Source: an uncultured Eubacteriales bacterium
GTDB taxonomy: Bacteria > Bacillota > Clostridia > Oscillospirales > Oscillospiraceae
NCBI GenBank assembly: GCA_900317425.1
Contig: ONGR01000010.1
Coordinates: 1 to 62,189 of the forward strand
Direction: 5' to 3'
Length of the DNA stretch: 62,189 nt
Shown here: positions 45,748 through 60,373 of the stretch, one piece after another
How the letters are laid out: each line of letters opens with the position of its first letter
Numbering within the stretch: the stretch's first letter is position 1
Notes under the pieces: generated by a model
Seen by the model: the letters and a program-made list of their open reading frames with translations, nothing else
The model's database searches: none
Told to the model about the DNA's origin: nothing
Position numbers and translations under genes: made by a program

Positions 45748-46320
45748 GTGTATTATCACGCCTCGCGCAGACCCGGCATCCGTATGCTGGAGCCCCACGT
45801 GTCCAACCACGGCGTGCCGCTGATCTATTTTTCCGACCGGCGGGAGAACGTGCTGCCGTACCTCAGCAACGCCGTGGCCAAATACTGCCGGGAGACCGGC
45901 TTTGCCCATGAGGGCCCCTGGACCAAGTGGGCCTCCTACGGGTTCACTCCCGACGGACGGCTTCGGCTGGAGGAGTACTATCCCAACGCCACGGAGGAGA
46001 CGTACCGGGGTGTGTCCGGCTATATCTATCGGGTCAGCCGGATCATCCCCACGGCGGATGACATCCAGATCCCCCATGCCTTCGCCACGGCTCAGCAGGT
46101 GGCGGTGAAGGGCTGCGAATTTATCCCGGACGCCTACGAGGCCATCCTGGAGGCCGAGCGGCTGGGACTCATCGAGATCGCCCGGTATGAGCGGCTGGCG
46201 GCCAGCCCGGAGTTCATGGCATGGAACCGGGAGACCATCCTGCGGGAGTATCGGCAGTCCGCCGACCGGCCGGACTACCGGCACTTCCTGCGGGGAAAAT
46301 TTGATTTTATCGAGGAATGA
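45748..46320 (+). CDS. Conserved hypothetical protein with YHAS start
   Basis: A 190-residue soluble protein. It begins MYYHASRRPGIRMLEPHVSN and has IYFSDRRENVLPYLSNA, then a beta-rich middle and a helical end. The early YHxS, the G-I-x-L-x-P segment and YFSD resemble the start of ADP-ribosyltransferase-fold families (DarT/KptA-like), but this is pattern recall only. Start is GTG 45748, 17 bp after the helicase gene. It lies in one transcript with the helicase and a binding protein, unless unrelated. Confidence 0.6.
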   Translation: MYYHASRRPGIRMLEPHVSNHGVPLIYFSDRRENVLPYLSNAVAKYCRETGFAHEGPWTKWASYGFTPDGRLRLEEYYPNATEETYRGVSGYIYRVSRIIPTADDIQIPHAFATAQQVAVKGCEFIPDAYEAILEAERLGLIEIARYERLAASPEFMAWNRETILREYRQSADRPDYRHFLRGKFDFIEE

Positions 46321-46334
46321 GGAGTGAAATCCCC

Positions 46335-47915
46335 ATGAAACTTTGGAAACGAATGGCCGCTCTGGTGCTGGCGGCGCTGCTGCTGGCGGGGTCGGCGGCG
46401 GGCTGCGGCCAGCAGCAGGAGATGACCTTCTCCGCCGCGCTGGTGGGCGTACCCGCGTCCTATGACCCGGCAATGGCGGTGAGCTGCAGCGAGCAGATCG
46501 CGGCGGTCCATCTCTATGAAAACCTGATGCGCCTCCAGATCGGCGAGAGCGGTACCGAGGTGGTGGGCGCCCTGGCCCAGAGCTATGAGCGCACCGACAA
46601 CCTGGACGGTACGGAGACCTATACCTTCCACCTGCGCAGTGACGCCAGGTGGTCCGACGGCCGCACCGTGAGAGCGGGGGACTTCGTCTATGGCTGGCAG
46701 CATCTGGTGGACCCCAATACGGATTCCCCCAACGCGGCGCTGCTGGATATGGTGACCGGCTACGACAAGGCGCGCCAGGGCGATCTGGACGCCCTGGCGG
46801 TGCGGGCTGTCAACGACACCACGCTGGAAGTGGATCTTTCCTGCCACTGTCCGTATTTTATCCGGAGCATCTGTACCGTCGGCCCCACCATGCCCCGTCG
46901 GGCTGATCTGGCCGGCAGCAAGGAGCCGGTGACCAACGGCCCCTATGCCTGGGGCGACAATACCGACGGCGTGCTGACGCTGCACGTCTCCGAGCACTAC
47001 TACGACACCCGCCGGCTGGGGCCGGACACGCTGAAGTTCTACTTCTGCGACACGGCGGAGCAGGCGGAGACGCTGCTGGACGACGGTACGGTGGATTTTG
47101 CGGGGAATCTGGATGACGAGTCGCTGAAGGCGGAGGACGGCTGGACCATGGAGCCCTATCCCGAGACCACCCTGCTGGTGGTGAACCAGATGGCCCAGCA
47201 GCTGAACAACAAGGACTATCGGCAGGTCCTGTCCCTGGTGATCGACCGCACGGCGCTGACAGAGACGCCGGGCGTGGGGCTGTGTGCCCCGGCGGAGGGG
47301 CTGATCCCCTACGGCATCACCGCCTCGGACGGTCAGGCCTTCCGGGAACTGGAGGGCCCCCGCATCGACAATACCGACTATGAGCAGAACTGCGCTGCCG
47401 CCAAGGCACTGCTGCAGAATCGGACCATGGACGGCATCGCCGACGTGGTGATCCTGTATGAGAACACGGGCGCCAACGCCCAGCTGGCCGGTCAGATCCA
47501 GACGGCGTGGCAGGAGCAGCTGGGGATGAAGGCCCGGGTCCAGGGGGCGTCTCCGGAGGAGATGGCCGCCAAGCTGCGCAAGGGCGAGTTCAACGTGGCG
47601 CTGATCAGCTGCGCCGCCGACCGCAACGACGCCAGCGCATTCCTGAACATGTGGCGCTCCGGCAGCCGGGACAACGTGGCCCTCTTCGGCTCCAGCGCCT
47701 ACGACATGCTGATGCGCGTGGCGGCGGCGTCCTCCAGCGCGGAGGCCCGGGATGCTTACCTGGCCGATGCGGAGCGCCTGCTGCTGGAACAGGGCAACGC
47801 CATCCCGCTGTACACCACCGTGCGGGCCTACCGGCTGCGCACCGGCCTCACCGGCCTGCTGTCTGACGGGCTGGGCGTGTTCCGCTTTGGCGGGATTCGC
47901 CAGGCGGCCAACTGA
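46335..47915 (+). CDS. Oligopeptide-binding lipoprotein (OppA-like)
   Basis: A 526-residue solute-binding protein of family 5. A signal sequence (about 1-22) ends in a lipobox-like SAAGC. The mature part shows ATGCSEQIAAVHLYENLMR-like binding motifs (SCSEQIAAVHLYENLMRL), YTFHLRSDARWSDGRTVRAGDFVYGW, and the typical LVVNQMAQQLNNKDYRQVLSL region. No permease or ATPase genes are adjacent, so it must serve a transporter encoded elsewhere or have a sensing role. ATG 46335 follows GAGGAG. Confidence 0.85.
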   Translation: MKLWKRMAALVLAALLLAGSAAGCGQQQEMTFSAALVGVPASYDPAMAVSCSEQIAAVHLYENLMRLQIGESGTEVVGALAQSYERTDNLDGTETYTFHLRSDARWSDGRTVRAGDFVYGWQHLVDPNTDSPNAALLDMVTGYDKARQGDLDALAVRAVNDTTLEVDLSCHCPYFIRSICTVGPTMPRRADLAGSKEPVTNGPYAWGDNTDGVLTLHVSEHYYDTRRLGPDTLKFYFCDTAEQAETLLDDGTVDFAGNLDDESLKAEDGWTMEPYPETTLLVVNQMAQQLNNKDYRQVLSLVIDRTALTETPGVGLCAPAEGLIPYGITASDGQAFRELEGPRIDNTDYEQNCAAAKALLQNRTMDGIADVVILYENTGANAQLAGQIQTAWQEQLGMKARVQGASPEEMAAKLRKGEFNVALISCAADRNDASAFLNMWRSGSRDNVALFGSSAYDMLMRVAAASSSAEARDAYLADAERLLLEQGNAIPLYTTVRAYRLRTGLTGLLSDGLGVFRFGGIRQAAN

Positions 47916-47994: not shown

Positions 47995-48140
47995 CATTGC
48001 AAAGGCTAAGAAGCCCCAGAAAGCATTGCTGCTCTCTGGGGCTTCGTTCTGCTTGGAGCTTCATGCAATAGCTCCACCAAAAGTGAGAAATTCGAACGCC
48101 GTCCCAATCGGAACGAATTTCGGACTTCTTGTTTTAATTT
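47995..48140. repeat. Flanking repeat R1 of the defence-like operon
   Basis: This sequence aligns with 53483-53634 (R2). Both begin CATTGCAA-GGC, contain a hairpin (here GAAGCCCCAGA at 48010-48020 pairing with TCTGGGGCTTC at 48035-48045), a CCACC, GAGAAA and then a 34-bp palindrome-derived core (48091-48124), and end near GTTTTAATT. Here the palindrome is degraded. R1 and R2 enclose the four-gene operon. Confidence 0.65.
48010..48045. terminator. Hairpin within R1
   Basis: GAAGCCCCAGA and TCTGGGGCTTC form 11-bp arms. It is downstream of both the OppA-like gene (plus) and the 313-residue gene (minus), so it may end transcription from either side, though T-runs are short. Confidence 0.5.
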
Positions 48141-48274: not shown

Positions 48275-49216
48275 TTATTTAACCATGAACCCGATAATAT
48301 TTTCAGTAGGCATGACCTCAACTGGGTTAAAATACCGATTGTTCCGCTTGATATGGAGGCAAGATACCCCCTCTTTTTTAAGCAGAATCGGAATGAGCGA
48401 TTGTGCAAATATCAGCGGTTTTGGCCCATCGGGAACAAAAATAATATCTCCTTCTGATAAATACTCACTTGCAATCTCACAAAGCTTCGCAATCATAAAC
48501 TCAAAATCATCCATTCGCAGTGATATTAGCATATTTGCATGAGAGATGATGGTTTGGTTAATCTCTATAACATTATTATGAAGAATGCCATTTCTAGAAT
48601 CATAGGCTGCACAGGCCAAGAATGAGTCGGGATCAAGTAAGGAAATAGTAGCTTGTGTTCTTACGACGTCATAGCTTAAAGATATAATGTGTAGTCGTTT
48701 ACTGTTTGTCCTCAAGGTAGGTCTGCCGGAAAAATGAGTAAAAGAGTGTATCCCGGCTGAGGGATAATTAATATAGCTATCTGGGTACAGTCCGTCAACA
48801 TACCAAAATAGTAATATATCATCTTCTTGAAGGACTTTCGTAATAGCGCTAGGAAGTCGGCAATACCACCCTCGCGGCATAGACGAATAGTCTATATGGA
48901 TTCTAATTGGTATGCCCTTCTCTCTCTTTTCCTTAACGAAATCCATAATCATTCCAATTGTAGAGGAATAGTCTTCATATGTTGATCGTTTAAAATTTAT
49001 TCCCTCGTATGTCATGCGAAGATCATCATATGTCTCTGTATTACTTCTGGCTGCAAGAAGCTCTTCAAACACAAACACCAAAATGTTTCTGTTATTCAAC
49101 TTCTTGCGAGCTTGTGAAAACAAATGAAATGATCTGCTTTCATACCCAAATGCACAGATAAATAAATCTTCTGGCAGGAAGGTATCAGGAGAATAATTTG
49201 CATTAACTATTTTCAT
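48275..49216 (-). CDS. Unrecognised 313-aa protein, last gene of the four-gene operon
   Basis: A soluble 313-residue protein with no family I can name. Conserved-looking motifs are FICAFGYESRSF (19-30), RIHIDYSSMPRGWYC (105-119), WYVDGLYPD (138-146) and IIFVPDGPKPLIFAQ (258-272). The strand-loop-helix layout suggests two Rossmann-like halves, so it may bind a nucleotide. No membrane segment. ATG 49216 overlaps the ATPase gene by 14 bp, so the two are translationally coupled; a longer frame upstream is less likely. It could be the effector or sensor of the system; this is inference. The gene is AT-rich. Confidence 0.75.
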   Translation of the reverse strand: MKIVNANYSPDTFLPEDLFICAFGYESRSFHLFSQARKKLNNRNILVFVFEELLAARSNTETYDDLRMTYEGINFKRSTYEDYSSTIGMIMDFVKEKREKGIPIRIHIDYSSMPRGWYCRLPSAITKVLQEDDILLFWYVDGLYPDSYINYPSAGIHSFTHFSGRPTLRTNSKRLHIISLSYDVVRTQATISLLDPDSFLACAAYDSRNGILHNNVIEINQTIISHANMLISLRMDDFEFMIAKLCEIASEYLSEGDIIFVPDGPKPLIFAQSLIPILLKKEGVSCLHIKRNNRYFNPVEVMPTENIIGFMVK

Positions 49217-51020
49217 CTCGAACCTCGTCAAAAATGGAAATCTGCATATTATCCATGGCATTCTTTTCAGGGCAATTCTGGATGCGTTTTTTTGTCTGAA
49301 CCTTATAGCTCGGATTAACCCCCTCGTCCCCAAATGAAATCTTAGCGGGAATATCGCTTCTCATTGGGATCCAAAAGGCAGCGCAATAGGCATTCGAAAG
49401 AAGATATTTGGTATCTTTGGTAATGCCATTTATTACAAAACCATCCGCAACAATAAGCCTAGAATTTGCAATTGCAGCCTGTATCCATTCTTTATTCTCT
49501 GAAAAATCGTTCTCATTGGCAAAGGAAAGCACAAATGACGCACCGGCTGAGATCAGAAACCTGTCATGAACTCTCGAATGTAAATACTCAGAAATAAATT
49601 CTAGTTTGCTTGAGATTACAGGTCCGACCTCGTTTAAGCCTTTTGTTGCAAGGCAAAAATTGTTTGCATATGATAACAACACTTGATGCTGCATTTTCGG
49701 TTGCAAGGGGTGCCTCTTTGCTTCTTCAAATAGCTCATTCATTATTCGAAGGAATGCACGAGGATTGCCTTGAGAAACTTTCCTTACTGTCTTCGCGCCA
49801 GCATACCACCCAGGTTTTCTATTTCCTTGTTTTGAAAGCCTATACATTTCCCGTGTAAAGAAAATTGTGGCATACTTATCATAGATGGTCTTTCGTTTGT
49901 TTTTGTAACTAGAAGACCCGACCATCCTCTTGGGGGAAAATGATTGCACTATTCTTTCTTCAATTTGCTCTCGCTCGGCGTTCTTCTCCCCGATTTCTTT
50001 TCTATAATAATCAATTAGATCATCATTTCCAATTTTGCCCAGGAAGTCTTCTAGTGTTGATATATTTAAATTGGGATCGACTCTGGAATTGATTCTGTGA
50101 GAGCACAAGCGGTTTGTGAGGTTAATAAAATCTGCACTATCATACTCCATATCGATAACGTGATATATGAAGTCATTGCCCGCAGAAACAGTTACGTCTG
50201 GTGAAAAAGTTTTTAGTGTTGTATGTGCATAGGGAAGAGTTGCAACCTTTAGTGCGATTCTGTTTGAGTCGGAGCGAAACACATTGTTGATGCATTCTTG
50301 AAGAGTCTGATCAAGAAATTCTGCTTCGTCAATACAAACTAACCAAGTCGGATTCGAAGTGATCTCCAAAACACTGGTAATAATATCTTTAGCCGCAACC
50401 AAAGGGGAGCATATTTGCTTCCGGAAAACAATTGGGATGTTTGTGTTATCTGGAGACAGCGGATCAAAATTATTAAATAAGCTATTAAGTTTACGTTCGA
50501 GTGGTAAAAAATCAAAGATAGTGTCTTCTCCCGTATCGAACCACACACTACTAATTTCATAGGAAAGCTTGGCAATTTTTGAGGCTTTCTCGATTGGGTC
50601 TGCGATATCACCAGTAAGAGCATGCAACTCCTGGATCATCGATTGTGCAAGGATAAAATTAAATGCGATTTGGAATGCCTCAATTCTCCGTTCTGAGGAA
50701 ATAGAATTTGGCGCAACGCTAGTGACAAATTCAAGATGCATTGGAACATAAAATGAAAAAAAGCGTTTTTCTAGCACCAATCGTTTGGCATCTTCCGCAT
50801 CTATCCTCTTCAACATTGAATAGCGCATCATCTTTAAAAGAAATGTTTTCCCACTCCCTCGGGTTCCAAGAATAATCTCATGCTGCTCGTTAAATAAATC
50901 CCAGAAACTGGAGATTGGGCAAAATTCTTTTAGAACTTTTTCGTCAGAAAAATTGCGAGCCTGACTATCAAAAAAAGGATTTTGGCCATCATAGTTTTTT
51001 ATTATATCAGCTTTTCGCAT
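49203..51020 (-). CDS. P-loop ATPase, ORC/STAND-like
   Basis: A 605-residue ATPase. Walker A is GTRGSGKTF (52-60), Walker B WLVCIDEAEFLD (226-237), and a sensor or winged-helix segment with SQGNPRAFLRIMN (416-428) follows. The N-terminus (NPFFDSQARNFSDEKVLKEF) and the GTRGSGKT loop resemble the ORC-CDC6-family AAA ATPases seen in defence islands. No coiled coil as in SbcC/RecF. The C-terminus (residues 430-605) has no known domain. ATG 51020 overlaps the phosphoesterase gene by 14 bp and the end overlaps the next gene by 14 bp. A sensor or motor role in the operon is inferred. Confidence 0.8.
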   Translation of the reverse strand: MRKADIIKNYDGQNPFFDSQARNFSDEKVLKEFCPISSFWDLFNEQHEIILGTRGSGKTFLLKMMRYSMLKRIDAEDAKRLVLEKRFFSFYVPMHLEFVTSVAPNSISSERRIEAFQIAFNFILAQSMIQELHALTGDIADPIEKASKIAKLSYEISSVWFDTGEDTIFDFLPLERKLNSLFNNFDPLSPDNTNIPIVFRKQICSPLVAAKDIITSVLEITSNPTWLVCIDEAEFLDQTLQECINNVFRSDSNRIALKVATLPYAHTTLKTFSPDVTVSAGNDFIYHVIDMEYDSADFINLTNRLCSHRINSRVDPNLNISTLEDFLGKIGNDDLIDYYRKEIGEKNAEREQIEERIVQSFSPKRMVGSSSYKNKRKTIYDKYATIFFTREMYRLSKQGNRKPGWYAGAKTVRKVSQGNPRAFLRIMNELFEEAKRHPLQPKMQHQVLLSYANNFCLATKGLNEVGPVISSKLEFISEYLHSRVHDRFLISAGASFVLSFANENDFSENKEWIQAAIANSRLIVADGFVINGITKDTKYLLSNAYCAAFWIPMRSDIPAKISFGDEGVNPSYKVQTKKRIQNCPEKNAMDNMQISIFDEVRDENS

Positions 51021-52248
51021 TTTTAATGGCCTCCTCTGAAATCACGGATATGTTTTCTGGAAATGAGCCAGTAATAATATAGCCCGCTTTGACGTTTGTG
51101 CGAAACAATTTGTTTAAGTCCTCGAATTTCACATAGTGAAGACACTCGGGAAGATCTTTGTAACGTATTACGACAAGAGGGCGATCAACATGCTTCAAGC
51201 ATTCCTGAACCGAGGCGGATAATTCTTTCTCTTGAAAAATCTTTCCTAACCACATCTCCGCATCTAGTGGTGCCTCTGGGCGATTGTGGGTTAGTGGTTT
51301 CCAACCAGAAGAAGCAGAATACTCGTATGTCTTTAACAGAAACGCTTCTGGCGCCTTCTGAAAATCTATTATATGTGCTGTGTTAGGTATTTCTCCGTTG
51401 CTCCTGTGCTTCGCGTTTACTGAAAGACTTCCTGCACATACAAAAGAAATTGGATGGCTCCAATCGTCGTGCTGAATGGTTTGTGCTCGCGGATGATGTC
51501 TATGTCCATGTAAAACCAAGTTTATGCCATATTTCCCAGCTAGATCTAATAACTCACTACTCTCTTCAATCAATGAAATATCCTCAGTTGGAGATGGGAA
51601 AGAGTATTTGATCGGATGATGATGCAATAATAGTACTTTTGTACGTATATCAGCTTTATATGTTTTTAATTCTGATTCCAGCCAGCCTAGTTGTTCTGAG
51701 GATATTTTCCCGTGGGAGTATTCTTGCGTCGGGAAGCAGTGCCACCCGGTATTAATTGCAAACAGAATCATCTCCTCTTTTTCTAGAACTCCTGAAAAAG
51801 GTGCCACTCCCCTTTGGAGTGTTTTCAGGTGAGCAATATTCATTACGGCACTATTTGCAGCGATTTTCTGATACTGTTCTTTAAGTATCTTGGCGTGCTC
51901 TGCCTCCATCTCTTCTGTTGTTAATCTTTCGCTAATTTCCGCGATTTTCCAGTCGTTATCATGATTACCTGTCACGCAAATGATGTTTTCAATAGGAATT
52001 TCTGCTTCTTGTGCAACTTGGAGCATTATCTTTTCAAAATAATAGTACTCCAAAGGGCTTGCAATTGAAGTCAAATCACCCGCGATAAGAATATACTTTA
52101 CACGTTCGGTCTTTATTATTTCAATTAAGCCGTCTAATAAAGATTCCGCCCCTGTGTTTTCGTCATCAATGGGGCATCCTGGAACAGATAGTTCCTTTGT
52201 CCGTGAATATTTGCCAAAATGAATATCACTTATCAGAGCAATCTTCAT
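51007..52248 (-). CDS. Calcineurin-type metallophosphoesterase
   Basis: A 413-residue protein. All metal ligands are present: DIH (D8, H10), GDLT (G57-T60), GNHD (94-97), LLHHHP (207-212) and GHRHH (248-252). This is the class III phosphodiesterase (CpdA-like) or SbcD-like nuclease pattern. The C-terminal about 130 residues have no family I know; they are helical and could contact the ATPase. It may hydrolyse DNA, RNA or cyclic nucleotides. It is the second gene, 53 bp after the methyltransferase gene, and overlaps the ATPase gene by 14 bp. Confidence 0.82.
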   Translation of the reverse strand: MKIALISDIHFGKYSRTKELSVPGCPIDDENTGAESLLDGLIEIIKTERVKYILIAGDLTSIASPLEYYYFEKIMLQVAQEAEIPIENIICVTGNHDNDWKIAEISERLTTEEMEAEHAKILKEQYQKIAANSAVMNIAHLKTLQRGVAPFSGVLEKEEMILFAINTGWHCFPTQEYSHGKISSEQLGWLESELKTYKADIRTKVLLLHHHPIKYSFPSPTEDISLIEESSELLDLAGKYGINLVLHGHRHHPRAQTIQHDDWSHPISFVCAGSLSVNAKHRSNGEIPNTAHIIDFQKAPEAFLLKTYEYSASSGWKPLTHNRPEAPLDAEMWLGKIFQEKELSASVQECLKHVDRPLVVIRYKDLPECLHYVKFEDLNKLFRTNVKAGYIITGSFPENISVISEEAIKNAKS

Positions 52249-52301
52249 ATCTTTCCCCGTTTTCCTAAAAGTTTATAAGGTATTTCTGAACTTGCATTGA
52301 T

Positions 52302-53093
52302 CTAGAAAGAAGTAATTACTAATTCCTCAATCATCCGCCTACTTTTTGCCTGCCCTGAAATTGTACTCTTTCTAGAAAGGGTGCGTGTATGAAAGCCGCA
52401 ATTCTCATATTGCTCTTTAATCTCCTGACAGTTGGCATTAGTAAGCAAAATAATAGCTCCTCTTTCGCGTGCTCGGTTAAGCACCGCAAGCAAACGAGTT
52501 TGATCGCTCCATGTGAAGAGGGACTGATTGTACTTAATAAAGCCAGAACCCGTAGACGTTGTATACGGGGGATCGACGAAAACAAAATCCCCTTCCCCGG
52601 CACGATCAATTACCATAGCAAAATCACAAGAAAGCAATTTTGCATTTCTTAATGCATTAGAATAATCCTCAAACTGATCAATGTCATAAACACAGTTGGT
52701 TTTCGTTCCTATTGGGACGTTGAACATCCCTCGCCGATTTTCTCGATACATCCCATTGTAACAAGTTCGGTTAAGGTACAGCATTCGGCCGGCACGCTCA
52801 ACCACATCATCTGGTACATGATTTCGAACCGAATAGTAATGTTCCTCACTGTGCATTTCTTGATGCCGTCGCATTACACCTTGGAGTTGCGTCGGCTGGT
52901 CACGCATAATTATATAGAGATTGATCAGTTCTTGATTAATATCAGAAATAGTTGAGTTCGCTGGAAGAATTGAAAAAAAGATTGCTCCACTTCCAAGAAA
53001 GGGCTCATAATAATGATTAAATCTCTCTGGAATAAGATTGTTCTGAGCTGCCAACCAGCGTTTCCCGCCTGGCCATTTTAAAAATGGTTGCAT
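52302..53093 (-). CDS. Dam-like DNA adenine methyltransferase
   Basis: A 263-residue N6-adenine methyltransferase of the alpha class. WPGGKRWL at the N-terminus, SAM motif YYEPFLGSGAIFF (29-41), the middle helical DNA-binding region (NRTCYNGMYRENRRG) and catalytic DPPY (in DFVFVDPPYTT) are intact, in the order of Dam/DpnM. GATC is the likely target but not proven. It starts at ATG 53093 after TGTGAGGATT and is first in the operon. No cognate restriction enzyme gene is present, but the operon may supply the restrictive activity. Confidence 0.88.
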   Translation of the reverse strand: MQPFLKWPGGKRWLAAQNNLIPERFNHYYEPFLGSGAIFFSILPANSTISDINQELINLYIIMRDQPTQLQGVMRRHQEMHSEEHYYSVRNHVPDDVVERAGRMLYLNRTCYNGMYRENRRGMFNVPIGTKTNCVYDIDQFEDYSNALRNAKLLSCDFAMVIDRAGEGDFVFVDPPYTTSTGSGFIKYNQSLFTWSDQTRLLAVLNRARERGAIILLTNANCQEIKEQYENCGFHTRTLSRKSTISGQAKSRRMIEELVITSF

Positions 53094-53122
53094 ATAAAAT
53101 CCTCACACAGTTTATTTAAATT

Positions 53123-53152
53123 ATTTTATCATAACACCTATAGAAAAGACAA
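53123..53152 (-). promoter_or_regulatory. Promoter of the four-gene operon
   Basis: TTGTCT (53152-53147), 18 bp, TAAAAT (53128-53123) on the minus strand. It is 30-60 bases before the methyltransferase start. Confidence 0.45.
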
Positions 53153-53545: not shown

Positions 53546-53585
53546 CCTTTGCTTTTTGAAAGCATTTTCCACCACAACTGAGAAA

Positions 53586-53619
53586 TCCGAATATCGTTCC
53601 AATTGGAACGATATTCGGA
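53586..53619. repeat. Perfect 34-bp palindrome
   Basis: The half-site TCCGAATATCGTTCCAA (53586-53602) is followed by its exact complement (53603-53619). A degenerate copy lies at 48091-48124. Such a long, uninterrupted palindrome may be a recombinase or relaxase site, a cruciform, or an operator of a dimeric repressor. It lies about 270 bp upstream of the response regulator gene. Confidence 0.85.
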
Positions 53620-53860
53620 TTTTATGTTTTAATTAGGAATCTAAACAGTTAGGTTATACTGTAAAGATATCTTCACTGATGGCAATAAAATTTGTCTCCC
53701 TAACTTAATATGCTGTAGATTAGCAAAAAGTGGCAGTCTTAAGGCAGTAACTTTAGAAACCTACCCGCCGTTTTTTAAATAGTTGACCAGAAACATCCCC
53801 ACAGTATGGTATACTATGAACGTGCTTCCTGGCTTTCAAACAGAGGATAATTATAATACC

Positions 53861-53876: not shown

Positions 53877-53924
53877 TTTTACAAGAGACAATAAGGGGTA
53901 AATAGCGAAAGGATAATCTTGCTC

Positions 53925-54599
53925 ATGCAACACAAAATTTTGATAGTAGATGACGAACCAATGTTGACCGATCTTTTGGCCGACTACCTGGGTGATATGG
54001 GATATCTGCCTCTTATAGCTACCAATAGCGTGCAAGCCATGGAAAAGCTGAAAGAAGCTCCCGACCTGATTCTGTTGGATATCAACATGCCGGGTATGGA
54101 TGGGCTGGAACTATGCAAGACCATACGGGATGAAGTCACCTGCCCCATTCTGTTTCTTACAGCGCGAGATGCTGAACAGGATAGAATCAACGGTTTGCTC
54201 CTTGGTGGCGATGATTATATTACCAAGCCTTTCAGCCTTTCGGAAGTTGCTGCCAGGATCTCTGCTCACCTTCGAAGAGAGGCGCGTACACATGATGCTT
54301 CACGATTGTTAGCCTCCCAGGAGCTTTTGGTAAATCTTTCCCGCCGTACAGTGCATTTTAGAGGGACAGAGATCGTTTTTTCCAAGAGGGAATTTGATAT
54401 CTTGGAGTTTCTGCTGACCCATGCCGGGCAGGTATTTGATCGGGAACGAATCTATGAAGCCGTGTGGGGATTGGATGCGTCCGGAGATAGCGGTGTAGTA
54501 AAGGAACATATTCGTAAAATCCGGCAAAAACTGCAAAGTGTTGCAGGAGAGGACTATATTGAAACTGTCTGGGGGGTTGGCTATCGATGGAAACAATAA
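53925..54599 (+). CDS. OmpR/PhoB-type response regulator
   Basis: A 224-residue regulator with receiver residues D9, D10 (VDDEP), phosphoacceptor D52 (LLDINMPGMDG) and Lys in YITKPFS, and a winged-helix effector (about 128-222, FSKREFDILEFLL, HIRKIRQKL, VGYRWK). Start is ATG 53925; TTG 53919 is also possible, with AAAGGAT closer to it. It overlaps the kinase gene by 13 bp. It probably binds the TTGAC-N6-TTGAC boxes before itself and the lipoprotein gene. Confidence 0.9.
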   Translation: MQHKILIVDDEPMLTDLLADYLGDMGYLPLIATNSVQAMEKLKEAPDLILLDINMPGMDGLELCKTIRDEVTCPILFLTARDAEQDRINGLLLGGDDYITKPFSLSEVAARISAHLRREARTHDASRLLASQELLVNLSRRTVHFRGTEIVFSKREFDILEFLLTHAGQVFDRERIYEAVWGLDASGDSGVVKEHIRKIRQKLQSVAGEDYIETVWGVGYRWKQ

Positions 54600-55870
54600 A
54601 ATTCCGTGGGCTTCGCAGTTCTTTTATCTTGTATGTACTGACTACATTAGTTATTGCAGCAGTCCTGTCCGGCCTGACAATCTGGGGCTGTGTTGCTTTG
54701 CAAAAAACTTTATTGCCGGACTCCAATCAGGTTTATCTCACGATCCAGCGAAACGATCCTGATGGAAATGAAACAACAACCACGGTTCCGATGCCCTTAA
54801 ATGACGAGCTAATAGAGATTCCTATTATGATTTCTATGGAAGATCCGGACGGCAATACTTTGTCCGGTGGGCGGAATATAAAATACTCTGTAACAAAAAT
54901 AGAAAACAGTTTTGCAGCCCTTTCTCCCAAACGTCGATTCGCTTATCAAGCCAGCCAGATCGGGATGATTGTTATGCCAGTATTATTTTCTCTGACAGGA
55001 ATACTTCTCTGTGGCCTTTTGTTCTACCGAAAGAAATTAAAAACGCCCATCCTGCTATTAACCTCGGCTACGAAACAGATTGCAGAGCAAAATCTGGATT
55101 TTCAGATCTCTTATCCCAGCGCAGACGAGATGGGAACGCTGTGCGCTTCCTTCGAGCAAATGAGGCAAATATTAAAAGAAAGCAATCAAACATTGTGGGA
55201 TATGCTGGAGGAACGCAGGCGTCTCCAGGGGGCCGTAGCTCATGATCTGAGAAATCCCATCGCTATTATCCAAGGCTACGCCCAATATCTGCAGATCAGT
55301 CTCTCCGGTGATAAGATCAGCAGAGAAAAAATATCCTCTGTAGTCGCCAATATTCTTCATACTTCGCACCGACTGGAGCGATATACAGACTCTCTCCGTA
55401 CAATTAGCCGACTGGAGGAATTGACGGTACAGGCGCAGACAGTGAATTTCGCTTCACTCTCGTCCGAGATGAGAGAAGATTTCAGTATGTTGACAGAAGA
55501 AAAGCGCATAGAATTGGATTGGGAGAATACAGTTGTTGAGAAGGTATTAAATTTGGATACTAAGATTCTATATCGTATTCTAGAAAACTTAATCAGCAAC
55601 GCCGTTCGATTTGCCAAGCGAAAAATAAAGGTTCACTTTGCTTATTACCAGGGGCTTTTAAGCACCACAGTATCCGATGATGGCCCGGGATTTCCAGAAA
55701 AGGTATTAAATAGTAAAGACGGTTATGCCTACTGGGGAAGTGATGATGAAAATCATCTTGGTATGGGACTGGCTATTTGTCGAGTTCTCTGCCGGAAACA
55801 CGGTGGACAGTTCATCTTATCAAGCTCTGACCGGGGCGGTGCTGCTATAAAATTTACCTTGTCATCTTGA
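54587..55870 (+). CDS. Sensor histidine kinase
   Basis: A 427-residue kinase with a first membrane helix (about 13-36), an external domain (about 45-120), a second helix (about 124-147), a HAMP-like linker (about 148-200), H219 in AVAHDLRNPI, and an ATPase domain (ENLISNAVRFA, SDDGPGF, GMGLAI). It overlaps the regulator gene by 13 bp. The small external domain should sense a peptide or envelope signal; the lipoprotein and ABC genes after it suggest an antibiotic or bacteriocin response. Confidence 0.9.
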   Translation: METIKFRGLRSSFILYVLTTLVIAAVLSGLTIWGCVALQKTLLPDSNQVYLTIQRNDPDGNETTTTVPMPLNDELIEIPIMISMEDPDGNTLSGGRNIKYSVTKIENSFAALSPKRRFAYQASQIGMIVMPVLFSLTGILLCGLLFYRKKLKTPILLLTSATKQIAEQNLDFQISYPSADEMGTLCASFEQMRQILKESNQTLWDMLEERRRLQGAVAHDLRNPIAIIQGYAQYLQISLSGDKISREKISSVVANILHTSHRLERYTDSLRTISRLEELTVQAQTVNFASLSSEMREDFSMLTEEKRIELDWENTVVEKVLNLDTKILYRILENLISNAVRFAKRKIKVHFAYYQGLLSTTVSDDGPGFPEKVLNSKDGYAYWGSDDENHLGMGLAICRVLCRKHGGQFILSSSDRGGAAIKFTLSS

Positions 55871-55882
55871 CCAAAATTTGAC
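55867..55882 (+). promoter_or_regulatory. Response-regulator box 2
   Basis: TTGAC at 55867-55871 and 55878-55882 (11-bp period) begins within the kinase stop codon. TTGACC could be a -35 with TATTAA at 55890-55895 as -10 (17-bp spacer). It precedes the lipoprotein-ABC genes. Confidence 0.55.
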
Positions 55883-55952
55883 TCTAATCTATTAAGATCT
55901 CCTTGTATTCAAAACGCTGTGTTTTGCAGCAATCACACAAGGAGGTCTTTTT

Positions 55953-57365
55953 ATGCGCAAAAAATGGATTGCATTATTGCTGGCAGGTTTGGCCATATGT
56001 AACCTTTCTGCCTGCGGAAACGGCAACTCTGATCAAAACTTCGAAAAACAAGGTGAATACAGCGGTGCAGTAGATCCCGGAAAACAAAATACGCAGACAT
56101 CGAATGAAACCAATTCGGCAAACGGCCTGACATCACTCATTCATCAGTTTGGCCTGTTCCATCGCTATTGCAATACAGAAGACGGCTTTTACTACTTGAC
56201 AGAGAAGGATTCGCTCCTTGCGGATGGTAGCTATGCCCCTCATCTGATGTATATGGATTATGCCACCTGTCAAGAGGTGTATCTTTGCAGTGACAGCAGT
56301 TGCCAGCATAATACAAAAGATTGTACTTCTGTCATGGGCGGAGCGTCTTCGGATGGCCGAATTTTTACCTGGGATGGATACTTGTATTATCTTGACCGTT
56401 CTCCAGATACCAGTGGTTCTACCATCATCAATATTATCGGTGATGCCGGATCTGCCAATGTGGAAGCAGAACGGGCTGAATTATATCGTATGAATCTGGA
56501 CGGTTCCGGACGGGAGCGCATTTACAGCTTTGACGCTGCCACTACCGTGGAGGATGTAGCTCTGGGGAGTGATAGTGGCCTATTTTTTGTTACAAAGAAA
56601 TTGGAAAATCGCGAATCCGGCTCAGGCACTTATATCACAACTTCCGATCGGCAACTCATTTGCTTGAATCCGAACAGCGGCAAGGCCACCCCCGTCTGCT
56701 CCCTGGATTTTGACGATGGCCTAAACTGGGAAATCATCGGTTCGGCAGATGATAAAGTGATATTGAAAGCATATCAGTATCCCAATGGTATGACAGAGGA
56801 AGAGGCGGCAGCTTTGGATCAAGGCGCCTATCTGAATCTCCTAAAAAACAGTCAAATTGTCTATGCCTGCTTGGAACCTTTTACCGGGGAAAAAGCTCAA
56901 GTATATTCTCAAGCCGCCGGAGATAATGCCTTCTCTGAAGCGGTCTTGAATGGTTATCTGTATGCCTCTAATGCGTCCAGTCAAGACATTGTGAGAATCA
57001 ATCTTGCTACAGGCGAACAAAGCACGTTGTGCAGTCTGGAAAACAATTATCTGTATGGTACGCTGGGAAAGTATTTGTGTTGTACCAGCCAAGATTTGAC
57101 ATCAGATTATGGATATTATTTGATAGATGGGGAGAACGGAGAAATCACTCACTGTAGTTTGACGAACCAGGCCCTGGGATGGGGACTGGATCTGATGGCC
57201 GTGGCCGGAGACCATGCGTTGGTGGTCTATGACTATGACTATACGCCTTTGGGAGACAACTCCTATGAAATTACCCGTTATCAATACGGATTGATTTCTA
57301 TGGATGATCTTCTGAACAGCGTGCCAAATTACACGCCAATCCAAATGGTTGGGGAGGGAATATAA
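55953..57365 (+). CDS. Lipoprotein with propeller-like repeats
   Basis: A 470-residue exported protein. Signal peptide MRKKWIALLLAGLAICNLSAC ends with a lipobox (Cys21). The mature part has blocks like YHRYCNTEDGFYYLTEKD, LMYMDYATCQEVYLC, GRIFTWDGYLYYLDRS and ELYRMNLDGSGRERIYSFD, resembling DUF5050-type beta-propeller proteins of Firmicutes. It probably binds a ligand or helps the ABC transporter. RBS GGAGG is 11 bases before ATG. It ends 1 bp before the ABC ATPase start. Confidence 0.72.
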   Translation: MRKKWIALLLAGLAICNLSACGNGNSDQNFEKQGEYSGAVDPGKQNTQTSNETNSANGLTSLIHQFGLFHRYCNTEDGFYYLTEKDSLLADGSYAPHLMYMDYATCQEVYLCSDSSCQHNTKDCTSVMGGASSDGRIFTWDGYLYYLDRSPDTSGSTIINIIGDAGSANVEAERAELYRMNLDGSGRERIYSFDAATTVEDVALGSDSGLFFVTKKLENRESGSGTYITTSDRQLICLNPNSGKATPVCSLDFDDGLNWEIIGSADDKVILKAYQYPNGMTEEEAAALDQGAYLNLLKNSQIVYACLEPFTGEKAQVYSQAAGDNAFSEAVLNGYLYASNASSQDIVRINLATGEQSTLCSLENNYLYGTLGKYLCCTSQDLTSDYGYYLIDGENGEITHCSLTNQALGWGLDLMAVAGDHALVVYDYDYTPLGDNSYEITRYQYGLISMDDLLNSVPNYTPIQMVGEGI

Positions 57366-57366
57366 A

Positions 57367-58110
57367 ATGCTGGAATTGCAGGAAATCTCGAAACACTATG
57401 GCAACAAGCAGGCATTGGATCATATATCCCTGACGTTGGAAAATGGCATTTACGGCCTGCTTGGGCCCAACGGAGCAGGAAAATCAACATTGATGAATAT
57501 CATCACCGGCAACTTGAATCCTACTTCAGGTATTGTGCTTTGGGATGGGAGGAATGTCCGCGATATGGGGGCAGCCTATCGAAGTCTGCTGGGATATGCG
57601 CCCCAGCAGCAAGGACTGTATGATACTTTTACCGGTACTCGATTTCTTTCCTATATGGCGACCTTGAAAGGAATTCCAAAAAAAGAGCAAAAAGGTGAAA
57701 TCCAGAGAGTCCTGGACTACGTGAATTTGACAGAAAAAGCAAATCGGCCCATTGGCACCTATTCAGGCGGAATGAAGCAGCGCATATTGGTTGCTCAAGC
57801 CATTTTGGGCAATCCACATCTGGTCGTTTTGGATGAGCCTACAGCCGGATTAGACCCAAAAGAACGAGTGAGAATTCGGGAAAACATTCAAAACCTCTCT
57901 GGGGACAAAATCATCTTTGTATCGACGCATGTGGTTTCTGATATTGAATCGATTGCAAAAGAGATTATCCTTCTCCGGGAGGGAAAGATTGTAGACCAAG
58001 ATACCTTATCAAATCTTTGCAAAAAACATGGAAATGTGAAAAACCTGGAGCAAGTCTATCTGCAGGCATTTGGAGAGGAGGAATCCAATGACGGCCCTCA
58101 TACAGTTTGA
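57367..58110 (+). CDS. ABC transporter ATP-binding protein
   Basis: A 247-residue ATPase with Walker A GPNGAGKST (33-41), signature YSGGMKQR, and Walker B LVVLDEPTAGLDP. It is of the ABC-2/antibiotic-export type. ATG 57367 is eight bases after GGGAGGG. Its end overlaps the permease gene by 23 bp (58088-58110). Confidence 0.92.
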   Translation: MLELQEISKHYGNKQALDHISLTLENGIYGLLGPNGAGKSTLMNIITGNLNPTSGIVLWDGRNVRDMGAAYRSLLGYAPQQQGLYDTFTGTRFLSYMATLKGIPKKEQKGEIQRVLDYVNLTEKANRPIGTYSGGMKQRILVAQAILGNPHLVVLDEPTAGLDPKERVRIRENIQNLSGDKIIFVSTHVVSDIESIAKEIILLREGKIVDQDTLSNLCKKHGNVKNLEQVYLQAFGEEESNDGPHTV

Positions 58111-60373
58111 GTTGCAAAAGGTTTGGCGAAAAGGGAGTTTTCTGCGCCTCATGGCATTATTGCTTCTTATAAACGTTTTCTTCCTTTGGTATTTGAACCG
58201 GCCTGCAGGGGATGAACCGCCTCTTTCCGCCTACAAAGCCGTCTGCCGTGATATTTCTGGCATGACGGAATATGAAAAAATCGCTTATATCAACGGTCTC
58301 AAAGAACAAGTAGACGGACTTTCTCTTGTGGAACAAATACAAAATCTCTACGGACAGGGCGGCGAAGTAAGAAATACTCTTGCAGAACAATTAAAGAAAA
58401 GCAATTCTGATATATATGAGAAGTATACGCAGCTTTATCGCGCGGGGGATTATTTGGTTTACACAGATTCCCTGGCAAAAGAACGTGCTTTGCTTAACGA
58501 ACTGTATGAGGAAATTTCCGCTGTATCCGGCTATGAGGATTATTTAGCTTCTGTGCAAAAAAGCAGCCACCAGCTTGGCACAATATCGATTTTTCGATCA
58601 TCTACATCGGAGGACAATTTTGCAATCCGTAATATCGTAAAAAGCGCTGCAGACCATGCAGGGCTATCCTCCGAAAATATCTGCTGGTTTCCTTCTAAAG
58701 GGATGGTAATGGCAGTGGAAAGCCTGGCAACCGATCTGTTATTGCTTCTTTCCATCTTCCTTTTTGTCGGCGAACTCATAACAGAAGAGAAGGGGAAGGG
58801 GTTATTTGCCATTACGCGTTCTACCAAACGAGGATTATGGGCGGATATGGGAGCGAGGATTATTGCCGTGCTGATCCATGGCGGCACGGTTTGCCTGTTG
58901 CTTTATGGCTCCAATTTAATTTGTGCCAGCAGTATGGCCGGGATGGGAAATTTATCCGCATCCCTTCAATCTTTGGCCCCCTATGTGGAAAGCAGTTTTC
59001 CAATCTCTTTGTCAGCATTTCTGGTTCTCGGTTTGGTAACGAAGATTGGTATGGTATTCCTGCTGGGATTACTGCTAACTGCTTCTGCGATTTGCAGCTC
59101 CCAGAGTTTCATGCCACAGCTTGTTGGAACCGCTTTTTTAGGCTTACATTGGGGCTTTTATGCGTTCATTCCGCCCCATTCGCATCTGAGTTTGTTGAAA
59201 CATCTTTCCTACTTTAGCATGCTTCGAACGGGCGCCTTATTTGGAACTTACCTCAACTTGAATATCATGGGATTTCCATTCAACCGCACAAGTTGCTCAT
59301 TGATATTGCTGGCTATTTTACTTTCCACAGGCATCATAGCTGTTCTTCTTCTATTTCGATATGGGAACAGACTGCGTATCAACCAGACGTCAAGACATTT
59401 CCATTTGCCATTTCGTCCGCACGACAGCCTATTTCGACATGAGGGATATAAAATAATAATTGCAAATTGTGGGCTCCTGATTTTGCTGGCCTTTGCCATC
59501 CTTTTGGGATGGAATGCCTTTGGGAAGAACTACACCCCATCGGCCGGCGAGCAATACTATCAGAGTATGATGCTCTCGTTAGAAGGCGAGCTTACTGATG
59601 AGAAGGAAGCCAGCATAATGGCGGAGTGCGCCCGTTATGATGAGGCATTCTCCCAAATAGCGCAAATTGATCAAATGGTAGCGGATGGAAGTATCAGTGA
59701 AAACACCGGAGAAAGCATGAAAGAACCGTGGTACAGTGAATTGGCCTTCTATCCATGGTTTCAACGGATTCAAGTGCAGTATGAGCGAATTCTATCAGAA
59801 GGCGGCCTCTTTATCTATGACACAGGATACCTCTACCTTTTGGGCCAATTAGATGACGACTTTTTGGTAAATCTTCTTCTGATTACTCTATGTTTCTGTT
59901 TTGCTTTTGCCAATGTAATGGCAATGGAAGACAGCAAAGGACTTTGGGGCCTTTTATCCGCAACGAAGTTGGGAAAAAAACGGATTGTTAGCTATAAATG
60001 GATGGTATGCAACGTTGCTTGTTTGGGAATAACGCTGCTCCCATGGCTTTTCCGTGGTATATCAATTTCATCGGTCTATCCCATGGGTGAGATTTGGGCA
60101 GGGATACAGAGCATTCCGCAATACCGTAACTTTGCCATCAATTTACCGCTTCTGCTGTTTATAATGTTGGCAGTGCTCAGCCAACTGATTGCGACGCAAC
60201 TGATTTGTGCTGTGGTGCTACTACTATCCAAATGGAGAAAAAACTATTTTCAAACTCTGTTTTTAGCTCTGTTATTATTGGCGGCTCCCCTGGCTTTGGC
60301 ACAAATGGGGATAAGCATTATGCGGTGGTTTTCAATCTGGCCTTTGTATGGATGGACAGGATTAATCGGATAG
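58088..60373 (+). CDS. ABC-2-type permease with two similar lobes
   Basis: A 761-residue membrane protein. Each lobe has one N-terminal helix, a large soluble external part and about five or more helices: lobe 1 (1-440) has helix 18-38, external 45-215, helices 215-420; lobe 2 (440-761) has helix about 448-470, external 475-590, helices 590-755. The two-lobe build suggests fusion of two ABC-2 subunits, so one protein could form the complete channel with an ATPase dimer. ATG 58088 follows GGAGAGGAGG. It probably exports or extracts a peptide or lipid-linked toxin. Confidence 0.8.
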   Translation: MTALIQFELQKVWRKGSFLRLMALLLLINVFFLWYLNRPAGDEPPLSAYKAVCRDISGMTEYEKIAYINGLKEQVDGLSLVEQIQNLYGQGGEVRNTLAEQLKKSNSDIYEKYTQLYRAGDYLVYTDSLAKERALLNELYEEISAVSGYEDYLASVQKSSHQLGTISIFRSSTSEDNFAIRNIVKSAADHAGLSSENICWFPSKGMVMAVESLATDLLLLLSIFLFVGELITEEKGKGLFAITRSTKRGLWADMGARIIAVLIHGGTVCLLLYGSNLICASSMAGMGNLSASLQSLAPYVESSFPISLSAFLVLGLVTKIGMVFLLGLLLTASAICSSQSFMPQLVGTAFLGLHWGFYAFIPPHSHLSLLKHLSYFSMLRTGALFGTYLNLNIMGFPFNRTSCSLILLAILLSTGIIAVLLLFRYGNRLRINQTSRHFHLPFRPHDSLFRHEGYKIIIANCGLLILLAFAILLGWNAFGKNYTPSAGEQYYQSMMLSLEGELTDEKEASIMAECARYDEAFSQIAQIDQMVADGSISENTGESMKEPWYSELAFYPWFQRIQVQYERILSEGGLFIYDTGYLYLLGQLDDDFLVNLLLITLCFCFAFANVMAMEDSKGLWGLLSATKLGKKRIVSYKWMVCNVACLGITLLPWLFRGISISSVYPMGEIWAGIQSIPQYRNFAINLPLLLFIMLAVLSQLIATQLICAVVLLLSKWRKNYFQTLFLALLLLAAPLALAQMGISIMRWFSIWPLYGWTGLIG

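Follow-up and report, generated by a model that had tools for sequence, protein, structure and literature searches.

A conserved operon of a Dam-like methylase, a calcineurin-like phosphoesterase, an ORC-type ATPase and a CARF6 protein as a predicted immune module

Among the described systems closest to the operon presented here is BREX, in which BrxX reportedly binds phage DNA at non-methylated sites, BrxC is of the ORC/Cdc6 type, and DNA nicking or nucleotide depletion has been proposed as the activity of PglZ (PMC12839542). Mutation of the active site abolishes defence by the metallophosphatase systems DS-8 and DS-9 (PMC13092281), and nucleotide cues control the dNTPase effector of Clover (PMC12265719). 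Here we describe a four-gene operon with parts reminiscent of these systems, located at positions 48275-53093 (minus strand) of contig ONGR01000010.1 from an uncultured Eubacteriales bacterium (assembly GCA_900317425.1); the whole 62,189-nucleotide stretch that was analysed is referred to below as the window.

The operon consists of four intact open frames. The first gene (52302-53093, minus strand, 263 aa) encodes a Dam-like methylase and is followed on the same strand by genes for a phosphoesterase (51007-52248, 413 aa), an ORC-type ATPase (49203-51020, 605 aa) and a CARF6-family protein (48275-49216, 313 aa, ATG at 49216); for the last of these, a longer alternative frame of 352 aa with a TTG start is likewise open. 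The methylase and phosphoesterase genes are separated by a 53-bp gap, and the phosphoesterase/ATPase and ATPase/CARF6 junctions are overlaps of 14 bp each. Order, place and junctions all agree with what an earlier examination of the letters and frames of this DNA (the sequence-only reading) had stated.

Judging from its sequence and its relatives, this conserved operon is very likely an immune module. Our preferred reading, to which we give a probability of roughly 0.5, is that it is a mobile, methylation-guarded immune module in which the ORC-type ATPase and the CARF6 protein would gate an effector that hydrolyses nucleotides or phosphodiesters. The methylase would mark host DNA as self, probably at GATC, and the ATPase would assemble on DNA; CARF6 would read a nucleotide cue of infection and, with the ATPase, decide whether unmarked invading DNA is present. 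This decision would release the phosphoesterase, and the ensuing nucleotide hydrolysis or DNA nicking would stop either phage replication or the cell. The ATPase and CARF6 would thereby form a fixed switch, with the methylase family and the effector (phosphoesterase, PRTase-CE or HD-CE) as exchangeable parts, and this switch may use the methylase as a reader of marks, as with BrxX in BREX.

The neighbourhood of the four genes is conserved, as the sequence-only reading had asked of a true module. Loci were collected without requiring the other genes to be present, using the 313-aa protein, the ATPase in plasmids, the Pfam family PF24389, an ATPase alignment and a CARF alignment; the alignment-based genome scan contributed at least five loci, and single-sequence CARF scans of genome contigs and plasmids yielded nothing useful. 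Fourteen phosphoesterase-type loci were obtained, distributed over the window's class, alpha- and beta-proteobacteria, Bacteroidota and one viral contig. Besides the window, they are L035 (G059), the Methylobacterium and Cupriavidus plasmids L003 and L004, L044 from Chryseobacterium, L045 from a beta-proteobacterial metagenome-assembled genome (MAG), L046 from Paucibacter, L047 from an Acetobacteraceae MAG, L048 from Gemmobacter, the IMG/VR contig L049, and L072 (G985), L078 (G1221), L073 (G885) and L079 (G1253). The ORC gene directly follows the phosphoesterase gene at all 14 loci, CARF6 directly follows ORC at all 12 with sequence left, and a D12 methylase is the next gene on the 5' side at 12 of the 14. 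The complete order of methylase, phosphoesterase, ORC and CARF6 is present at 10 loci, with two more cut after ORC. At L049 the D12 methylase lies across a 541-bp gap that holds no frame of 50 aa or more, and at L073 it sits 3' of CARF6.

Other enzymes occupy the effector position at further loci. Six of them (L036, L037, L074, L075, L077 and L080) carry a PRTase-CE protein over the family cut-off, each with an operon methylase of the N6_Mtase, N6_N4_Mtase or m5C family; their ORC was recognised by PF24389 at the four that were scanned (L036, L037, L074 and L075) and by the alignment profile at L077 and L080, and their CARF6 by profile at all six and by PADLOC at the scanned four. One locus, L083, combines PF24391 HD-CE with an m5C methylase. 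A DNA methylase is a near-constant component: at 21 of the 22 loci where this could be tested it lies inside the operon, and it comes from four Pfam families (D12, N6_Mtase, N6_N4_Mtase and m5C DNA_methylase). This count leaves out L082, which is cut by a contig end, and the CARF fragments L081 and L071; L048 and L049, whose contigs end after ORC, were counted for the methylase and not for CARF. Chance juxtaposition of the methylase was rejected on these numbers. From these comparisons, ORC and CARF6 look like a fixed core around which the effector slot and the methylase family are exchangeable.

Pairwise distances over 11 phosphoesterase-type loci show the genes to be inherited together, with correlations of 0.95 between phosphoesterase and ORC, 0.92 between ORC and CARF and 0.90 between phosphoesterase and CARF, none of which was reached by any of 5000 label shuffles. 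Methylase distances correlate with those of the other three at r 0.52-0.63 (reached by at most 2 of 5000 shuffles), and at L073 identity to the window's protein is 50% for the methylase and only 15% for the phosphoesterase; methylases seem to have been replaced more freely than the other operon genes. Because the order recurs in distant genomes and the distances co-vary, we take the set to be more than chance.

The methylase of the window is a D12 N6-adenine DNA methyltransferase of the Dam/DpnM type (PF02086, 158.6 bits), exceeds the cut-off of the TIGR00571 dam model (228 vs 114.85 bits) and retains its DPPY motif at residues 174-177. Its closest solved structure is the DpnII methylase (2dpm, E 1.4e-50), with E. 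coli-type Dam chains next, and a Y-N-G, an R and an N-V-P stretch are common to the window methylase, the DpnII methylase and Dam. Due to this alignment, GATC is the likely target. No restriction endonuclease family was found among the Pfam and NCBIfam matches of the four proteins, the flanking frames having only been read and not scanned.

The ATPase, which the sequence-only reading had called ORC-like, proved to be of the ORC/Cdc6 type: it matches PF24389 (ORC-CDC6-like) over positions 1-565 of 571 with 335.2 bits against a cut-off of 27, and its Walker A (52-59), Walker B (D231-E232) and GNPR (418-421) motifs are intact. Its AlphaFold2 model has a predicted local distance difference test score (pLDDT) of 73.7, and in Foldseek this model aligns best with ORC chains from yeast and human and with archaeal Cdc6/Orc1, at low template modelling scores (TM-scores) of 0.2-0.34. 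PADLOC returned a weak match to HEC-02A (E 1.8e-5). Within the window's phylum, PF24389 was found in 79 of 398 genomes at E up to 0.001, with 9 matches over the cut-off and three near full length. Weak ORC-like ATPases without the rest of the set exist, since the six weakly matching loci L038-L043 gave no CARF, phosphoesterase or D12 profile match in 82 frames. One of these loci has a weak ORC-CDC6-like ATPase (L041:4857-8602) that adjoins an unnamed 282-aa gene and an N6 methylase, again with no CARF6 match, and is possibly a further variant. At L076, an ORC-CDC6-like ATPase (L076:2672-5488) is fused to an N-terminal ParA/CbiA-like ATPase; CARF is matched only weakly at this locus (E 3e-6), an N6 methylase is present, and the position of the effector is taken by an unnamed gene.

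The presumed effector is a calcineurin-like phosphoesterase (PF00149, 56.8 bits, cut-off 21.5). Its catalytic motifs D8/H10, G57-D58, N95-H96, H209-211 and H247/H249/H251 are intact, and the metal ligands are invariant in all 10 aligned members. A profile built from these 10 sequences retrieved 11 PDB matches, including Lmo2642, Rv0805/Icc, the 2dxl/2zo9 phosphohydrolase (which we take to be GpdQ), SMPDL3A and a nucleotidase; Lmo2642 and Rv0805/Icc act on cyclic nucleotides. No SbcD/Mre11 chain appeared in this PDB search at E up to 0.001. The sequence-only reading had offered a nuclease or a cyclic-nucleotide family as alternatives; the solved structures matched are of the nucleotide type, and membership of SbcCD/Mre11 was rejected on the PDB search together with a TIGR00619 score below cut-off. 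With a threshold of E 0.1, seven of the 10 aligned members match the C-terminal domain PF24408 (wHTH-Calcineurin_assc), and among four further relatives two are over its cut-off, one is below and one is without a match; the window's own phosphoesterase gave no PF24408 match at E 0.1. The window's protein also matches the DS9_1 model (E 1.3e-24) and scores 86.9 bits against NF053862, below the 420-bit cut-off.

These results bear on the strongest alternative, that the operon is restriction-modification proper, with the phosphoesterase as a DNA nuclease that ORC leads to Dam-unmethylated DNA and CARF6 as an adaptor only. The methylase count given above fits such a system, as do the wHTH matches of the aligned phosphoesterases, the faint resemblance to SbcD/Mre11 and a weak match to the PADLOC 'Effector/Endonuclease' model (E 1e-10); in BREX, moreover, PglZ, which has a small-molecule phosphodiesterase fold, is reported or proposed to nick DNA (PMC12839542). 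We nonetheless regard this alternative as doubtful, given the lack of any SbcD/Mre11 chain among the PDB profile matches at E up to 0.001 and the presence of PRTase-CE in the same slot, a phosphoribosyltransferase not being a DNA nuclease. DNA cutting by PRTase-CE is implausible. Because PRTase-CE and HD-CE take the place of the phosphoesterase, nucleotides are the most likely substrate of the effector.

The 313-aa protein, listed as unknown in the sequence-only reading, can now be assigned to the CARF6 family as a putative nucleotide sensor. It matches the PADLOC model PDLC01921 CARF6 over its full length (3-298 of 298, E 1.4e-103), and yielded no match in Pfam, NCBIfam or PHROGs. Each of the 10 aligned members is recognised by at least one CARF6 model; CARF1 is matched by one of them (3.4e-5) and CasR, weakly, by one, and residues R28, D109 and G264 are invariant among the 10. 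The predicted structure (pLDDT 82.9, predicted template modelling score 0.84) contains two alpha/beta units in its topology, and Foldseek returned partial matches of probability 1.00 to Cam1, Csm6 and Can2 chains. The description as 'two units' follows from the topology of the model; a tandem duplication of the two halves was rejected, as hhalign gave a probability of 3%, which is not significant. CARF6 is presumed from these matches to be a nucleotide sensor. Across 18 genomes, the SMODS model gave 2 matches at E up to 0.001 (1 over cut-off) and the Cas10-palm model 8 (3 over cut-off), and both models match in the E. coli control and so are not fully specific.

A second alternative would make the phosphoesterase a regulator, which destroys the signal sensed by CARF6 and resets the system as ring nucleases do, leaving ORC and CARF6 as the active part. 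Similarity to nucleotide-type phosphodiesterases beside a CARF sensor is what such an arrangement would predict. We consider it unlikely: the operon holds no cyclase and two models detected none in the window's genome, an effector slot accounts better for the replacement by PRTase-CE or HD-CE, and neither ORC nor CARF6 has a recognised toxic domain.

Returning to the methylation-guarded reading, the acceptance of four methylase families, adenine- and cytosine-type, is the reason why we think that the switch probably operates without direct reading of one fixed methyl group. A broader proposal, which we advance tentatively, is that ORC and CARF6 form a general coincidence switch, in which only unmarked DNA and an infection-altered nucleotide together would turn on one of several interchangeable enzymes that act on nucleotides (a phosphoesterase, a phosphoribosyltransferase or an HD hydrolase). 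Several methylase families of both types would serve as the self-mark, and CARF6 would sense a host or phage nucleotide, not a signal from a cyclase of its own.

Several copies are on or beside mobile DNA. The methylase/PRTase-CE/ORC/CARF6 set of L074:2401-13232 adjoins TniQ, TniB, a Mu-type transposase and TnsA, which suggests that it is cargo of a Tn7-like element; TniQ is within about 10 kb at L036 and L044, L035 adjoins a phage-type integrase, L073 adjoins a P2-type gpA, and two loci are on plasmids (L003 and L004). The scan for mobile genes covered part of the loci. These vehicles suit defence cargo and are no proof of it. Phages were also considered as carriers: phage records gave no ATPase match by tblastn, viral contigs gave no CARF relative by single-sequence scan, and a single viral contig (L049) holds the methylase, phosphoesterase and ORC, on which grounds a phage-borne set was rejected. 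That the ORC-type initiator and Dam instead help to replicate or maintain a mobile element, and do not act in immunity, is the least probable alternative and quite improbable: it draws on the ORC/Cdc6 homology and on the plasmid, Tn7-like, P2-type gpA and integrase settings, and it is opposed by the variety of these vehicles between loci (so that the module looks like cargo and not like part of a replicon), by the inclusion of CARF6 and conflict-effector families in the set, and by the fact that no replicon gene was noticed beside the operon when the frames of 42-62 kb were read.

The operon of the window itself lies in an AT-rich stretch of a GC-rich genome, as the sequence-only reading had observed: G+C is 0.38-0.41 across the six 1-kb bins of 48-54 kb and 0.56-0.67 in most 1-kb bins of 1-48 kb (extremes 0.48 and 0.72). 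The gene on the left flank (46317-47915) is kept at 56-65% identity in four same-genus genomes in the region read. In the stretch read beside this orthologous flank in the four genomes, tblastn found none of the four operon genes; nor did it find the genes for a two-component pair and a lipoprotein located on the right of the window's operon, and the ABC ATPase gave only matches of 29-32%. Predicted frames at the corresponding region have a G+C of 55-73%. Because same-genus genomes keep the left flank without the operon and with GC-rich frames, the low-GC segment from 48 kb onward was most likely acquired.

We would like to note several points that weigh against the methylation-guarded reading. 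For its guard step, PglZ activation in BREX reportedly has no direct link to the modification state of the DNA (PMC12839542), and L079 is without an operon methylase, having only a D12 homologue encoded on the opposite strand at a distance of about 3 kb. The phosphoesterase of the window has a weak similarity to SbcD/Mre11 (TIGR00619, 27.9 vs a cut-off of 77.65 bits). The confidence of the ORC model is only moderate, and so is the assignment of the CARF fold, with a Foldseek TM-score of about 0.3 on the query; by E-value the top two Foldseek matches of CARF6 are sugar C-3'-methyltransferases, and a sequence-profile search with E up to 10 found no solved structure for it. There is no oligonucleotide cyclase in the operon, and the window's genome gave 0 matches with the SMODS and Cas10-palm models, other cyclase families not having been searched. 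Finally, the module is rare, CARF6 being found in 17 of 894 genomes: 7 of 300 from the Paucibacter order, 7 of 295 from the Chryseobacterium class and 3 of 299 from the window's phylum. Four of these 17 genomes (G000, G774, G776 and G468) gave profile rows and two gave fragments (L081 and L071). A single-protein CARF6 search of 391 genomes of the window's class had returned 2 matches, one of them the window's own.

The repeats that had been noticed on either side of the operon are confirmed. R1 (48073-48139, plus strand) has a near-palindromic core, and R2 (53568-53634, plus strand) contains a 40-nt palindrome within a terminator-like hairpin; they are 67 nt each and 81% alike. Their 17-nt palindromic core, with at most 1 mismatch, has only three sites in the 1.87-Mb assembly: 48100-48116 (R1), 53594-53611 (R2) and 52703-52719, inside the methylase coding region. 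At up to 3 mismatches there are 6 sites in the window against 0.52 expected, and the exact 14-nt core is present in 9 of 97 fetched loci, all nine from the window's own contig. The motif is a candidate operator, attachment site or terminator. A weak promoter-like site (9 of 12 matches) lies upstream of the methylase gene at 53123-53152 on the minus strand; since 25 such sites were found in the region against 17.1 expected (standard deviation 4.5), it is not evidence alone. To the right, the adjoining accessory genes that had been described are present as low-GC, plus-strand frames at 53919-60373, named by frame reading as a response regulator, a histidine kinase, a lipoprotein, an ABC ATPase and permease-like genes.

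The sequence-only reading had placed the combination outside named systems, and this is partly so. PADLOC (2023) gave no strong match to the ATPase or phosphoesterase, the exceptions in the operon being CARF6 and generic methylase models, and NCBIfam (June 2026) gave neither of these two proteins a match over cut-off; Pfam models already cover parts of the set. The consecutive Pfam families ORC-CDC6-like (PF24389), PRTase-CE (PF24390) and HD-CE (PF24391), together with PF24408, match the operon or its relatives, and we presume that all four go back to the work of Nicastro et al. 2023 on effectors that target nucleotides. That work reportedly names Calcineurin-CE, PRTase-CE and HD-CE as predicted immune effectors acting on nucleotides. 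The class has probably been predicted already, with the operon of the window a further member. A literature search covering few subscription journals found no experimental study of the operon, and we recognised no paper describing it there.

If the preferred reading holds, the operon would represent a form of CARF defence that has no cyclase of its own, is coupled to DNA methylation in place of CRISPR and uses plug-in effectors. It would bear on which ligands CARF proteins recognise where no cyclic-oligonucleotide system is involved, and on how ORC/Cdc6 ATPases, as in BREX, couple a missing methyl mark to an effector. The exchange of methylases across four Pfam families, cytosine-C5 enzymes among them, would then limit models of discrimination in BREX-like systems. 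Were the coincidence switch also true, it would define an immunity class between BREX and CARF signalling.

The components can be compared with known systems one at a time. The DpnII and Dam GATC methylases are the best PDB matches of the window methylase, but no DpnII-type endonuclease is among the proteins of the window operon. The full-length CARF6 match links the operon to CARF systems, the classification of CARF6 being reportedly that of Makarova et al. 2020; unlike them, the window operon has no CRISPR type III or CBASS cyclase. With the Pfam CE families it shares an ATPase over the PF24389 cut-off, and the remaining models are found in its relatives at the corresponding slots, whereas the window's phosphoesterase does not reach PF24408 at E 0.1. 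DS-8 and DS-9 from DefensePredictor likewise need a metallophosphatase for their defence, and the phosphoesterase matches DS9_1; its score is far below the family cut-off, however, and their partners are NACHT or HAD proteins, not ORC, CARF or Dam. BREX, with BrxC, PglX/BrxX and PglZ, shares the combination of a methylase, an ORC/Cdc6 AAA+ ATPase and a phosphoester-cleaving enzyme. The window operon differs in having another methylase class, a calcineurin fold instead of the PglZ fold, an added CARF6, and an ATPase of 605 aa against the 1200-1300 residues reported for BrxC (PMC12839542). No BrxA, BrxB, BrxL, PglZ, PglX or full-length BrxC was found among the family matches of the four proteins. 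By analogy, the operon is best read as BREX-like in its logic but not as a member of BREX.

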